From NCBI RefSeq assembly GCF_004912275.1, contig NZ_STGY01000083.1:1-64000 (forward strand): a DNA stretch of 64,000 bases. The letters run 5' to 3'. Each line of letters opens with the position of its first letter. The first letter of the stretch is position 1. Made by a program: the position numbers and the translations under genes. Of this stretch, positions 36,118-41,575 are shown in pieces. This stretch comes from Glycomyces buryatensis. GTDB lineage: Bacteria; Actinomycetota; Actinomycetes; Mycobacteriales; Micromonosporaceae. The notes below the pieces were generated by a model. It searched no databases and had not been told where the DNA came from. It saw only the letters and a list, made by a program, of their open reading frames with translations.

Positions 36118-37656
36118 ATGAGCCTCCAAAAGACGCTGTGGCGCGGCGGTCGCGTACTGAGCCCCACCAGTCCACACGCGACCGCCCTGCTGACCGAAGG
36201 CGACCGGATCACCTGGGTCGGCGAGGGCGATGACGCGCCGGCCGCCGACCGCACCGTCGACCTGGCCGGGGCCCTCACCACCCCGGCGTTCGTCGACTCG
36301 CACGTCCACCTCGGCGGCACCGGCGCCTCCCTGACCGGCCTGCACCTGGCCGGCCTCGGCTCGGCCGCCGAATTGCTCGACCGGGTCGCCGCGCACGCCC
36401 TCGACCTGCCCAGCGGAGCGATCGTCCTCGCCCACGGCTGGGACGAGACCACCTGGGGCGACCCGTCCCTGCCCCTGTCGGCCGAGGTCGAGAAGGCCGC
36501 CGCCGGGCGCCTGGTGTACCTCTCGCGGACCTGCGGGCACACCGGCATTGCCGGGCCAAGACTCCTGGCCGAACGGCCCGACCTGGCCGCTCTGGACGGC
36601 TTCGACGCGTCCGGGCTTCTCACCCGAGGCGCCCACCGCTCGGCCCGCGCCGGCGTGGCCGCCGCCGTCCCGATCTCCCAGCGCCTGGACGCCGTCCGCG
36701 CCGCCCTGGAGCACGCCGCGAGCCTGGGCATCGCCGCGGTCGCCGAGCACACCATCCCCGTCGCCGACGATCCCGCCACCGAGGACGAATTCACCGGCCT
36801 GATCGCGCTCGGTGCCAGGCCCGACCTGCCGGCGGTATACGGCTGGTGGGGCGAGCTCGGCGCGGCCGAAAGGGCCCGCGACCTCGGCGCTCACGGCTGC
36901 GGCGGCGACCTGTCCATCGACGGCTCCCTCGGGGCGCACACCGCCTTCCTCTCCGAGCCCTACCGCGACCGGCCCGCCGAGACCGGCGCCCGGTACTTCA
37001 CCGCCGAGCAGGTCCGCGAGCACCTCTCCGCCTGCCACCGCACCGGGCTCCCGGCGGCGTTCCACGCCATCGGCGACGCGGCCATCCAGGTCGTCCTGGA
37101 CGGCCTCGACCTGGTCGAGCCGCTGCTCGGCCTCGACGCTATCCGTCACGCCCGCCACCGCATCGAGCACGCCGAACTTCTCAACCCCGCCCTGACGGCC
37201 CGCATGGTCCACCACGGCGTCCACGCCTCGGTCCAGCCCTCCTTCGACGCCGCCTGGGGCGGCAGCGGCGGCATGTACGCGGCCCGGCTCGGCATCGACC
37301 GCGCACTGGCGGCGAATCCGCTCTCGCGCATGGCCGGCGTCGGCGTCCCGCTCGCGTTCGGTTCCGACTCCCCGGTCACCCCGCTCGACCCGTGGGGCGG
37401 CGTGGCCGCCGCCGTCGGCCATCACAACCCGTCGTTGTCGCTGACCCCCACGGCCGCCTTCAGCGCCGCGACCAGAGGCGGATGGCGCGCGCTCGGCGTG
37501 GACGACTCCGGAGCCCTCGCCCCGGGCATGCGAGCCGATTTCACAGTGTGGGAGCTCACCGACGGCCGTATCCCCGAGCTGAGTGATCTGCACACGCCCG
37601 CTCCCATGTGCTCCATGACCATCGCCGGAGGACACCTCGTGTACCAGCGCAGTTGA
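36118..37656 (+). CDS. YtcJ-like metal-dependent amidohydrolase
   Basis: 512 residues, Amidohydro_3 family. The metal motif FVDSHVHL (about 60-67), FHAIGDAAIQ (His near 318), RHRIEHAELL and the final Asp in LAFGSDSPVTPLDP make up the usual TIM-barrel metal site. YtcJ-like enzymes have varied or unknown amide/ester substrates. It may belong to the amino-acid importer operon (12-base gap), which hints at hydrolysis of an imported amide; alternatively GAGAAT 6 bases before the ATG gives it its own start. Confidence 0.88.
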   Translation: MSLQKTLWRGGRVLSPTSPHATALLTEGDRITWVGEGDDAPAADRTVDLAGALTTPAFVDSHVHLGGTGASLTGLHLAGLGSAAELLDRVAAHALDLPSGAIVLAHGWDETTWGDPSLPLSAEVEKAAAGRLVYLSRTCGHTGIAGPRLLAERPDLAALDGFDASGLLTRGAHRSARAGVAAAVPISQRLDAVRAALEHAASLGIAAVAEHTIPVADDPATEDEFTGLIALGARPDLPAVYGWWGELGAAERARDLGAHGCGGDLSIDGSLGAHTAFLSEPYRDRPAETGARYFTAEQVREHLSACHRTGLPAAFHAIGDAAIQVVLDGLDLVEPLLGLDAIRHARHRIEHAELLNPALTARMVHHGVHASVQPSFDAAWGGSGGMYAARLGIDRALAANPLSRMAGVGVPLAFGSDSPVTPLDPWGGVAAAVGHHNPSLSLTPTAAFSAATRGGWRALGVDDSGALAPGMRADFTVWELTDGRIPELSDLHTPAPMCSMTIAGGHLVYQRS

Positions 37657-37720
37657 CCTGCGCCGGAGCCGAAAGGGCCCCATACGCGAGAAAAATTGCC
37701 GGACCAAAAATGCGACCCGG

Positions 37721-37751
37721 TTGACGAAGGCGGCGCTGTTTGGCTTACGGT
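37721..37751 (+). promoter_or_regulatory. Candidate sigma-A promoter for the intergenic RNA
   Basis: TTGACG (37721-37726), 19 bases, TACGGT (37746-37751). No ORF follows for 400 bases, only hairpins and a terminator. Confidence 0.45.
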
Positions 37752-38093
37752 GGTCTGGTCCTCGGCGGACGACCACGACCGGAAGTCCGCCGAACGTCGG
37801 GGGCGACTCGACTTGCTTTGCTCCCACGCAGACTGGACAAGGTGGCAGCGCGGCCGCACTGCTACCGGCGGCCAGGTCCAGATCGCGGGGGTCGGCGGAG
37901 GAAGGCGAGCCGGTCGCCGGTGGTGGACCCGCAGCAGACGTAGGTGATCCCTAGACAACAACTCGCAGTTGATCAGCCAGATGGTTGCGAGTTGGTCCGA
38001 AGATCGCCAGCTGACGCCGCAGGGGACACCGGCCGTACAGGGACTGGGAGAAACCCGTGCGAGGGGCGTAGCCAGACACAGCTACGCCCCTTT
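37752..38093 (+). ncRNA. Candidate structured non-coding RNA, about 340 nt
   Basis: The 493-base gap between the amidohydrolase and lnt has no plausible ORF but has a promoter-like pair, several stems and an intrinsic terminator. Stems: TCGGCGGAC/GTCCGCCGA (37762-37770 with 37785-37793); CTGGAC/GTCCAG (37833-37838 with 37876-37881) enclosing GGTGGCAG/CTGCTACC (37841-37848 with 37859-37866); GCGGG..TC/GGACCCGC (37885-37893 with 37925-37932) enclosing GGCGA/TCGCC; CAACTCGCA/TGCGAGTTG (37959-37967 with 37986-37994). I could not match it to RNase P RNA, tmRNA, SRP RNA or a known riboswitch. It may instead be a cis-acting leader of lnt. Confidence 0.45.
38063..38093 (+). terminator. Intrinsic terminator upstream of lnt
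   Basis: GGGGCGTAGC (38063-38072) pairs with GCTACGCCCC (38081-38090), followed by TTT. It must end a plus-strand transcript that starts after the amidohydrolase, or attenuate lnt. Confidence 0.75.
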
Positions 38094-38149
38094 GCCGTGC
38101 GGGCAGTACGCTTAGACCTCACTTGAAACATGAGCGAGGAGCGCCTCCT

Positions 38150-39838
38150 TTGATCACCGTCACCGACGACGCGACCGATACCGCGGACGAGGCCCGTCCC
38201 ACCAGGTCACGCCGTCGCCTCAGCCTGATGGTCGACTCGCCGCTCGGGCTCCGCCTGAGCCTGCCCGCCGCGCTCGGAGTCGCCGCCGCCTCCGGTGGTC
38301 TGGCCGTGTTCGCCTTCCCGCCCTACGGCTGGTGGCCGCTCGCGGTGCTCTCCGTCGCCGGATTCGGCGTCGCCGTCCACCGCCGCCGCGCCCGAGGCGG
38401 CTTCGGCATCGGCTTCGTCTACGGCATGGCGTTCTTCCTCCCGCTCATCTCCTGGACCTCCACCCAGGTCGGCCAGTGGCCGTGGGTCATCCTCTCGGCG
38501 CTCGAAGCGCTCGGCCCGGCCGTCCTCGGCTGCGGGCTCGCGATCTGCTCGCGCCTGATCGACCGCCACCGGTGGATCTGGGCGCCGCTCACCGGCGTCG
38601 CCTGGGTCGCCCAGGAGGCGCTGCGCGACCGCCAGCCCTTCGGCGGCTTCCCGTGGGGCCGCTTGGCCTTCAGCCAGGCCGAGGCGCCCACCGCCGCGGC
38701 CGCCTGGCTCGGCGGCGCGCCCCTCGTCAGCTTCCTCGTCGCCCTCGCCGGCGGCTGTCTGCTCGCGGCCGCCTGGCGCCGCCCGAACTGGCGCAAGAGC
38801 GCCGCATTCGTCGCCGCCGCCGCGATCACCGTCATCGCCCCCAGCGCCCTCCCGATCGGCTCGACCGCCCCGAGCGGCGAGGAGATCAACGTCGCCCTCG
38901 TCCAAGGCAACGTCCCCCGCCTCGGTCTCGACTTCAACGAGCAGCGACGCGCCGTCCTCGACAACCACGTCGAGGCCACCCTCGAACTCGCCGACGCCGT
39001 CAACGAGGGCACCGTCGAGCGGCCCGACATCGTCGTGTGGCCCGAGAACGCCTCCGACGTCGATCCCGTCCACAACCAGGACGCTTACGACCTCATCAGC
39101 TCCGCAGCGGCCGCGATCGGCGTTCCGATCGTCCTGGGCGGCATCGTCGAGAGCGAAGACGGCGGCGATCCCGCCAATATGACCATCGTCTGGGACCCCG
39201 AAGCAGGCCCGGTGTTCATGTACTCCAAGCGCCACCCCGTGCCCTTCGCCGAATACGTCCCCTACCAGGACTTCTTCTCGACCATCGCCGGATGGATCGA
39301 CCCGCGCATGTCCGAGGGCCTCGACATGGTCGCCGGATTCGAGCAGGGCGACAACCCCGGCATCGTCGAAGTCGACGACATCACCCTTTCGGGGCTCATC
39401 TGCTTCGAGATCGCCTTCGACGCCGAAGTGGCCAACTCGGTTCGCGATGGCGCCCAACTGATCAGCGTCGGCACCAACAACGCCACCTTCGACGTCGCCG
39501 AGGCCACCCAGCAGCTCGCCCAGGTCCAGCTCCGCTCCATCGAGCACGGCCGCGACGGCCTGATGGTCTCCACCGTCGGCGTCTCCGCCTTCACCGACCA
39601 CACGGGAACCGCTTCACAGGCGACCGAGTTCAACACGGCCGCCGTGATCCAATCGGACCTGACGTTGTCGGAACAGTCCACTCCGGCCACCCAGGTCGGT
39701 ATTCTGCCCGAAGTGGTCCTCACCACCGCAGCGTTGGCCGCCTTGATCGCAGGTATCGTCATCAATGTCCGACACCGCCGCAGCGGCAGCCGACCGGCAG
39801 ACGAAGCCACTCCCGCTCCGGCGGAGTCGCAAACCTAG
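38150..39838 (+). CDS. lnt: Apolipoprotein N-acyltransferase Lnt
   Basis: 562 residues. Several membrane segments (about 18-235) precede a CN-hydrolase domain with the catalytic triad Glu (VVWPENASDVDP), Lys (MYSKRHPVPFAEYVPY) and Cys (LSGLICFEIAFD). A last membrane helix and a Pro/Ala tail follow. It N-acylates lipoproteins in the membrane. The TTG at 38150 has GAGGAG 8 bases upstream; the same bases can pair with the following CCTCC, which could hide the ribosome site. Followed 11 bases later by ppm1, as in actinomycetes where the two are neighbours or fused. Confidence 0.93.
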   Translation: MITVTDDATDTADEARPTRSRRRLSLMVDSPLGLRLSLPAALGVAAASGGLAVFAFPPYGWWPLAVLSVAGFGVAVHRRRARGGFGIGFVYGMAFFLPLISWTSTQVGQWPWVILSALEALGPAVLGCGLAICSRLIDRHRWIWAPLTGVAWVAQEALRDRQPFGGFPWGRLAFSQAEAPTAAAAWLGGAPLVSFLVALAGGCLLAAAWRRPNWRKSAAFVAAAAITVIAPSALPIGSTAPSGEEINVALVQGNVPRLGLDFNEQRRAVLDNHVEATLELADAVNEGTVERPDIVVWPENASDVDPVHNQDAYDLISSAAAAIGVPIVLGGIVESEDGGDPANMTIVWDPEAGPVFMYSKRHPVPFAEYVPYQDFFSTIAGWIDPRMSEGLDMVAGFEQGDNPGIVEVDDITLSGLICFEIAFDAEVANSVRDGAQLISVGTNNATFDVAEATQQLAQVQLRSIEHGRDGLMVSTVGVSAFTDHTGTASQATEFNTAAVIQSDLTLSEQSTPATQVGILPEVVLTTAALAALIAGIVINVRHRRSGSRPADEATPAPAESQT

Positions 39839-39849
39839 GAAGCACCGCC

Positions 39850-40638
39850 ATGAGCTCCACACCGGACCGGACTCCCACCGGCAGCGACACCGGCCCGGCG
39901 CTCGTCGCCATCCCCACCTACAACGAGCGCGACAATCTCGGGCCCACCGTCGAGGCGGCCCTGGCCAGCCGCCCGGACATCGACATCCTCGTCGTGGACG
40001 ACAACTCGCCCGACGGCACCGGCGACCTCGCCGACGAGATCGCCTCCCGCGAAGACCGCGTCCACGTCCTCCACCGGGCCGAGAAGCAGGGACTGGGCGC
40101 GGCCTACCTCGCCGCCTTCGCCTGGGCCGCCGAGCGCGGCTACCGCACCGTCATCGAGATGGACGCCGACGGCTCCCACGACCCGGCCGACCTGCCCCGC
40201 CTCCTCGCCGGACTGGAAGAGGCCGACCTGGCGATCGGCTCGCGCTACGTCCCCGGCGGCTCGGTCTCCAACTGGCCCTTCCACCGGCTCCTCCTCTCGC
40301 GCGGCGCCGGCGCCTACACCCGCCTCATGCTGGGCCTCGACGTCCAAGACGTCACCGCCGGCTACCGCGCCTACCGCCTCGACGCGCTCTCCAAGCTCGA
40401 ACTCGACACGGTCACGTCCGTCGGCTACTGCTTCCAGATCGACCTGACCTGGCGCGCCGTCAAGGCCGGCCTGACCATCCGCGAAATCCCCATCACCTTC
40501 ACCGAGCGGCGCTCCGGCGCGTCCAAAATGAACCTGTCGATCTCGCTCGAAGCACTGCGCAACCTCACCCGCTGGGGCATGGCCCACCGCACACGGCGGC
40601 TGCGACAAGCCTTGCGGCGTGGCAGAATCGAAGCGTGA
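39850..40638 (+). CDS. ppm1: Polyprenol-phosphate mannosyltransferase Ppm1 (GT2)
   Basis: 262 residues. A GT2 domain with AIPTYNERDNLGPTV, the VVDDNSPDGTGD motif and the metal-binding DADGSHDP. ERRSGASKMNLSIS is typical of dolichol/polyprenol-phosphate mannose synthases. There is no membrane domain, so it probably works with the membrane-bound Lnt-like partner, as described for mycobacterial Ppm1. It supplies polyprenyl-phosphomannose for lipomannan or protein mannosylation. Its stop overlaps the fxsA start. Confidence 0.93.
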   Translation: MSSTPDRTPTGSDTGPALVAIPTYNERDNLGPTVEAALASRPDIDILVVDDNSPDGTGDLADEIASREDRVHVLHRAEKQGLGAAYLAAFAWAAERGYRTVIEMDADGSHDPADLPRLLAGLEEADLAIGSRYVPGGSVSNWPFHRLLLSRGAGAYTRLMLGLDVQDVTAGYRAYRLDALSKLELDTVTSVGYCFQIDLTWRAVKAGLTIREIPITFTERRSGASKMNLSISLEALRNLTRWGMAHRTRRLRQALRRGRIEA

Positions 40639-41233: not shown

Positions 41234-41575
41234 TCAGCGCTCGCCGCGGCGGGCGCGCATCTCCTGAAGACGCTCGTCGAGGATGTCCTCAAGCTCCTCC
41301 ATCGAGCGACGCTCCAGCAGCATGTCCCAGTGGGTACGCGGCGGCTTGACCTTCTTGGTCTCGGGCTCCTCGCCATCGACCAGCTTCGCCGTCGAACCGT
41401 CCAGGCGGCACTCCCACGTCAGCGGGATCTCCGCTTCGACGGCGAAGGGCACCTCGAAGCGGTGTCCCTGCGGGCACACATAATCGCGGGTCTGACGCGG
41501 GGCCAGCTCCGTGTTGCGGTCCGATTCGTAGCTGACGGCGCCGAGACGAGAACCTCTCAGCATTCTGTCACCCAT
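41234..41575 (-). CDS. rbpA: RNA polymerase-binding protein RbpA
   Basis: 113 residues. MLRGSRLGAVSYESDRN, LAPRQ, FEVPFAVEAEIPLTWEC and KPPRTHWDMLLERRS match the mycobacterial RbpA layout: N-terminal tail, core domain, basic linker and sigma-interaction domain. It binds RNA polymerase with principal sigma factors and stabilises the open complex at actinobacterial promoters. Only two Cys remain in the core (VCPQGH and WEC), so a full zinc site is unlikely. Convergent with fxsA, in the same order as the mycobacterial Rv2050-Rv2051c region. Confidence 0.95.
   Translation of the reverse strand: MGDRMLRGSRLGAVSYESDRNTELAPRQTRDYVCPQGHRFEVPFAVEAEIPLTWECRLDGSTAKLVDGEEPETKKVKPPRTHWDMLLERRSMEELEDILDERLQEMRARRGER

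Follow-up and report, generated by a model that had tools for sequence, protein, structure and literature searches.

Locus and transcription signals

The window, the whole stretch of 64,000 nucleotides from Glycomyces buryatensis that was analysed, contains an intergenic block between an amidohydrolase gene and lnt in which a promoter, a predicted structured RNA and a terminator are lined up on the plus strand (Table 1). The likely start of lnt is the TTG at 38150, after GAGGAG. The next gene codes for a glycosyltransferase for which we assume the name ppm1. The nearby rbpA gene ties the region to RNA polymerase through its position alone.

Table 1. Positions of the genes, signals and RNA elements at the locus
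Feature	Position	Strand	Basis or remark
Amidohydrolase (Amidohydro_3), upstream neighbour	36118..37656	+	PF07969, E 5.6e-70
Sigma-A type promoter	37721..37751	+	-35 TTGACG 37721-37726, N19, -10 TACGGT 37746-37751
Structured RNA (candidate)	37757..38093	+	start deduced from the -10 box, terminator taken as the end; about 335 nt
9-bp hairpin	37762..37793	+	alignments; stretch not present in copies of Micromonospora type
Domain I, long imperfect hairpin	37803..37917	+	covariation (helices 3-5); contains GGCGGCCAGGTCCAG and GCGGGGGTCGGCGG
Domain I helices	37803-37808/37912-37917, 37812-37824/37897-37909, 37825-37838/37875-37889	+	mapped covariation
Domain I variable apical hairpin, GGTGGCAG/CTGCTACC	37841..37866	+	constrained fold
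Stem joining both sides of domain II	37922..38030 (within 37922-37932/38022-38030)	+	helix 7
Domain II	37943..38008	+	model R2; conserved class-wide
Domain II basal helix	37943-37949/38002-38008	+	
Intrinsic terminator	38061..38093	+	stem 38061-38072/38081-38091, then TTT (stem shares first T)
lnt (apolipoprotein N-acyltransferase), downstream	38150..39838	+	TIGR00546, E 5.4e-69
ppm1-type glycosyltransferase	39835..40638	+	PF00535, E 3.8e-34
rbpA, RNA polymerase-binding protein	41234..41575	-	PF13397, E 3.9e-45; often in the neighbourhood

The earlier note had described the block as an ORF-free candidate for a new RNA, with a TTGACG-N19-TACGGT promoter and a terminator near 38093. Both signals are present, and the observation is confirmed on firmer grounds than the note had. 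The promoter stretch 37721-37755 had a median identity of 85.7% over 21 Glycomyces loci, and in other genera it took the form TTGACA-N19-TACCGT. Class-wide, 105 of 123 distinct loci had TTGAC ahead of the RNA, compared with 16 of 115 in a shifted control; both boxes were present in 71 of the 123, with a spacer of 19 in 37 and of 16 in 34 loci. An automated promoter scan of the block, allowing spacers of 16-18, returned no promoter because the spacer of the RNA promoter is 19. The terminator belongs to the covarying consensus: as helix 11 it was paired in 97.2% of cells, with two-sided changes in five of its ten pairs (39 sequences). The stretch 37756-38093 folded with a minimum free energy of -171.9 kcal/mol (z = -4.3), a value equalled by none of 100 shuffles.

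Short ORFs do exist in the block. Substitutions counted by position modulo 3 were distributed 197/114/188 in the RNA, 1465/601/782 in the amidohydrolase gene and 1110/823/511 in lnt; the codon-type bias is weaker in the RNA than in the neighbouring genes, though not flat. A hidden protein was considered and rejected on these less codon-like substitutions and on the long antisense ORF of the block, for which no Pfam match was obtained.

Upstream of the -35 box, many loci of the window's family (L085, L104, L107, L122 and others) carry two copies of (C)GACACGCC, and L144 and L254 show CGGCGTGTC-N5-GACACGCCG; GACAC is reportedly the core for WhiA. Of 123 distinct loci, 28 (a count without chance control) had an inverted repeat, loosely written as ACCTGC-N(12-18)-GCAGGT, ahead of the RNA; in L264, L265, L280 and others it lay upstream of the -35 box. 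The repeat resembles an operator to which a dimeric regulator could bind. Since such operator-like repeats accompany the promoter in part of the copies, the level of the RNA may be regulated.

Conservation and fold

Among 21 other Glycomyces genomes, the median identity was 92.6% for the RNA, 70.3% for the intergenic DNA before it and 63.8% for that after it, and in the same loci 77.3% for the amidohydrolase gene and 80.4% for lnt. Conservation therefore peaks on the RNA, above the adjacent coding sequence. A DNA search of 61 genomes (the own genome and 60 relatives) gave a match in 35, among them all 21 other genomes of the genus at 89-93% identity; the plasmid collection searched held no match.

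Covariation was counted as cells in which both sides of a pair had changed. For the full RNA (39 sequences), 240 such cells compared with 84.4 in shuffled and at most 112 in slid alignments, and 58 of 95 pairs had two-sided changes, against 35.5 in shuffles. Domain II, in 64 sequences from the whole class, gave 205 cells, compared with 72.7 after shuffling and no more than 92 after sliding. Here 15 of 20 pairs had two-sided changes, a number reached by 31 of 500 shuffles, which makes this measure not telling. The shuffle control ignores the relatedness of the sequences, whereas the slid control takes it in. Helix 7 had two-sided changes in all ten of its pairs, with 79.9% of cells paired; closing helix 1 (84.1% paired, a two-sided change in one of five pairs) is weakly supported. 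With cells above both controls and the high identity within the genus, the candidate withstood the comparison with relatives that the earlier note had named as its check.

The individual stems proposed there fared differently. Those at 37833-37881 and 37959-37994 recur in the covarying consensus, as does the terminator, whereas the hairpin at 37762-37793 lies in a stretch that differs in sequence in the nearest genera and is missing from Micromonospora-type copies. The bulged stem at 37885-37932 is not a supported pairing; positions 37875-37917 pair with 37803-37838 instead.

In domain II, the basal helix is followed by an internal loop CCTA/CGAA (AGTA/CGAA in most relatives), a helix GAC/GTC and an apical stem with a CAGCCAG loop. 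In the centre of the domain TAGACAAC and the facing GG-CCGAAG are nearly constant, partly because the sequences were found by that motif, and the adjacent pairs are invariant or nearly so. Of 128 distinct loci, 110 had AG as the two letters preceding TAG, 14 (including the window's genus) had CC and 4 had GT. AGUA facing GAA is what we take to be the signature of a loop-E/sarcin-ricin motif.

Distribution in family and class

Two covariance models were used: R1 for domain I, built from 12 sequences with the window among the sources, and R2 for domain II, built from 64. They match the window at 37797-37922 and 37924-38029, respectively. R1 found the RNA in 95 of 150 genomes and 30 of 44 genera of the window's family, which includes Micromonospora (G108) and Actinoplanes (G166); the source genomes match by construction and are counted in these totals. 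With strict filters R1 gave no match in the other 55 of the 150. Each matching genome had one copy, except G153, which had two on separate contigs of 27 kb and 7.1 Mb. These two copies (L107 and L108) look identical over the stretch compared and reflect either a duplication or an assembly artefact. In a sample of 249 genomes of the order R1 matched 42, all but one of which (41) belong to the window's family, and in a class sample it matched 3 of 246.

The core of domain II reached much further. A loose TAGACAAC..GGTCCGAAGG motif was present in 122 of 123 loci gathered (93 distinct sequences). Class-wide the domain II motif occurred in 125 of 394 genomes and 62 of 138 genera, a genome count that includes one probable chance match with a long gap (G714); the reversed pattern appeared once among the matches listed. 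Among the matches listed in a separate scan of named genomes were Glycomyces, Micromonospora, Salinispora, Actinoplanes, Nocardioides, Kribbella, Nonomuraea, Streptosporangium, Nocardiopsis, Frankia, Actinotalea, Oerskovia and others, as well as a few non-actinobacterial ones that were taken as chance. R2, run on 40 further genomes that had mostly been missed earlier, matched 12 at E < 0.001. Among these 12 were all six genomes tried of family f33, Streptomyces-type by inference. In these Streptomyces-type copies GGCCCGAAGG replaces GGTCCGAAGG; the RNA follows the amidohydrolase gene and is itself followed by ppm1 in five and by lnt in one. Of 150 genomes of the order R2 matched 56, with a single match each, and in a phylum sample 11 of 246, all 11 inside the class. 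Judged from these matches, the candidate RNA spans the class Actinomycetes, normally with one copy per genome.

It is not shown to be universal, since it was not found in Mycobacteriaceae-type genomes, in those tried of several other families or in the 55 genomes of its own family. R2 gave only one chance-level match (E 0.6) in eight genomes of f8, Mycobacteriaceae by inference, nothing in the genomes tried of f40, f49, f51, f52, f53, f18 and f15, and nothing in some of those tried of f41, f32 and f1. The two domains also differ in reach: R1 detected domain I in none of 60 loci outside the family, which counts against one uniform whole-RNA family. Of 115 distinct loci, 87 had a CCAGG-type element 40-180 nt before the motif, compared with 10 of 115 in the control; as this element keeps its place, domain I outside the window's family is probably a relative of the one described here, though strongly altered. 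The copies read outside the family seem to have as their 3' end the domain II basal stem, followed by a pyrimidine-rich sequence.

Position relative to lnt and ppm1

Class-wide loci numbered 139, from which six were dropped as chance (L164, L186, L213, L222, L239 and L246, another kind of sequence without lnt, ppm1 or rbpA nearby) and five repeats left out (L265, L275, L276, L278 and L279, still included in 133-locus counts), leaving 128 distinct ones; L090 was excluded from set A3. A same-strand lnt lay downstream within 1.3 kb in 95 of the 128, and ppm1 followed directly, without lnt, in nine. In six, lnt was on the opposite strand, and ten had less than 0.9 kb of downstream DNA. The remaining eight were L151 with an opposite-strand amidohydrolase gene, four with the usual upstream gene of the window's family, two followed by rbpA, and L194, which lacked all of these. 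The strand relation to a regulated gene could be judged in all but 10 + 7 of the 128.

Of 40 loci around R1 matches, 35 had lnt starting within 0.7 kb on the same strand. In L103 a long N-terminal extension of lnt fills the gap to the RNA; this extension (G205, L103 2-2488, minus strand) is of low complexity and rich in PADAK repeats. In L095 a gene sits between RNA and lnt, and no lnt was found in three of the 40, where the contig or the retrieved stretch ends close by. In G080 the gene between the two is an opposing one of 414 aa, by the look of its sequence a putative MFS-type transporter.

The opposite-strand loci include Frankia (L151) and Protofrankia (L155). In Frankia-type loci (L271-L274, L277, L151 and L155) the RNA is still near the amidohydrolase gene and lnt, but turned round. 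Such inverted and separated copies, in 7 of 128 distinct loci and in G080, exclude a universal role as lnt leader. A riboregulator of lnt-ppm1-fxsA, as the earlier note had suggested, is contradicted by them in the form of a universal cis leader.

Comparison with known RNAs

Rfam 15 at curated (gathering) scores returned no family in the window or in 17 diverse loci, and none at E <= 0.5 in five diverse loci. A permissive scan of the block gave five matches at chance level (E 0.23 to 7.6); the best, at E 0.23, was the ybhL leader on the opposite strand, and 6S was absent among the five. The models of RNase P, tmRNA, SRP RNA and the known riboswitches were among those without a match. An earlier description was not found in the literature searched, although supplementary sRNA tables, e.g. 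for Streptomyces, could list one. The RNA was not shown in the accessible parts of PMC2864571, PMC6429828, PMC11109978 and PMC3765725. The main text of the last, as far as accessible, names scr1434 among scr14 terms and no SCO142, and the accessible part of PMC2422843 gave no match to SCO142x names. By the tests applied, conservation, covariation, promoter and terminator of its own and no Rfam match, the RNA family is new, as the earlier note had proposed; an intergenic structured RNA as such is of a known kind.

One of the closest known systems is Ms1 (mycobacterial Ms1, MTS2823, Streptomyces scr3559). It too is a structured RNA from an intergenic region of actinobacteria, is 200-350 nt long and has constant gene neighbours. 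However, Ms1 adjoins a HAD-IB hydrolase gene (PMC9130861, accessible part), whereas the RNA described here is flanked by the amidohydrolase gene and lnt/ppm1, and no shared sequence was seen. In 20 loci that surround HAD genes R1 gave no convincing match; its best was 54 nt on the minus strand at E 0.016. In two genomes, G029 and G075, this RNA (L104, L091) occurs together with an Ms1-like RNA that follows the HAD gene (L126, L127), recognised as such by eye from CACGCCTGGTAACC and CACCCACGCG, which they share with the mycobacterial-type L124. After the HAD gene of L129, L131 and L132, an Ms1-like RNA was not recognised by eye. Identity with Ms1 (a 6S/Ms1-like RNA was one of two possibilities in the earlier note) was rejected on the separate locus, the coexistence in two genomes and the R1 result.

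6S is a rod with a central bubble and paired ends. The present RNA shares its size class and possibly a pairing of 5' and 3' ends, but differs in its two domains, its position near lnt/ppm1 and its lack of an Rfam match. The OLE, raiA and ROOL-type large non-coding RNAs are likewise widespread structured RNAs first known by conservation; this one has no match to them in Rfam 15. CoRP of Corynebacterium glutamicum, also an actinobacterial structured RNA and one discovered by experiment, has 516 nt and is flanked by tRNA genes (PMC11077062, accessible part). Our RNA has other neighbours. The Lnt motif (RF01711, Weinberg 2010) has only its name in common, an RNA candidate called after lnt; it is listed for Chlorobi in the accessible part of PMC2864571 and belongs to the Rfam families, none of which matched this RNA in the scans above.

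Discussion

The block between the amidohydrolase gene and lnt almost certainly holds a member of a structured RNA family with an independent gene. Transcription would run from about 37757 to 38093 and yield a stable RNA of roughly 335 nt. We think it probable that this RNA works in trans and is bound by protein; it would then be the RNA part of an RNA-protein complex. This proposal draws on the clustering of the invariant letters in the internal loop, where TAGACAAC faces GGTCCGAAGG. The stems holding the loop change but keep their pairs, and an internal loop of this sort would fit a site where a protein binds, or one with another structural role, better than a seed for base-pairing.

A riboswitch-like leader or attenuator of the lnt-ppm1 operon, with the terminator as the switch, would account for the RNA standing on the same strand directly upstream of lnt in 95 of 128 loci and of ppm1 in nine more, and for the terminator placed just before lnt in the window. 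It would not account for the seven loci with lnt or the amidohydrolase gene on the opposite strand, for the opposing gene that separates RNA and lnt in G080, or for copies read outside the window's family, whose 3' end seems to be formed by domain II itself. We therefore regard such a leader as unlikely, although in part of the class the RNA may serve lnt/ppm1 in cis, because the neighbourhood is so constant. Binding to RNA polymerase, as core or holoenzyme, with tuning of transcription in stationary phase, as for 6S and Ms1, appears rather improbable. Size, possible 5'/3' pairing and the independent terminator resemble those RNAs, rbpA is in the neighbourhood, and in the accessible part of PMC9130861 neither Ms1 nor its gene neighbourhood is detected in the Glycomycetales. 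The fold, however, has two domains and is not a single rod with a central bubble, and the coexistence of both RNAs in G029 and G075 argues that this one does not simply replace Ms1. Moreover, RIP-seq in Streptomyces coelicolor named only scr3559 and scr0792 as associated with RNA polymerase (PMC11077062, accessible part), yet Streptomyces-type genomes carry our RNA; as far as that part of the source goes, this argues against a strong association with the polymerase, provided that S. coelicolor expresses the RNA.

A small RNA that targets mRNAs by base-pairing through an exposed loop, e.g. the CAGCCAG apical loop, could explain the CC-containing apical motif in 119 of 133 loci (five repeats among them; a loose pattern without control). 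The strongest conservation, however, is in the internal loop and its flanking pairs, and we consider this explanation very unlikely. That the conservation reflects DNA, be it binding sites or a replication or recombination element, hardly comes into question: the operator-like repeats upstream of the promoter would suit it, but the two-sided compensating changes exceed their controls, G-U pairs are tolerated, and promoter and terminator are properly placed.

Returning to a protein-bound RNA acting in trans, we tentatively extend it to an undescribed class-wide ribonucleoprotein built around a loop-E (sarcin-ricin) type internal loop, in Streptomyces-, Frankia-, Micromonospora-, Nocardioides- and Actinotalea/Oerskovia-type lineages. 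It might be an overlooked housekeeping or developmental RNA; we put the chances of this wider reading at somewhat below even.

RNAs so widely conserved in a bacterial class are often central, known cases being 6S, RNase P and Ms1, and antibiotic producers and nitrogen-fixing symbionts are among the genera that carry this one. Provided that the RNA is expressed, its sequence, fold, core loop, promoter, neighbours and relatives would make it a defined target in the search for a protein partner. It would then also bear on the question of which regulatory RNAs actinomycetes use instead of, or beside, 6S and Ms1.
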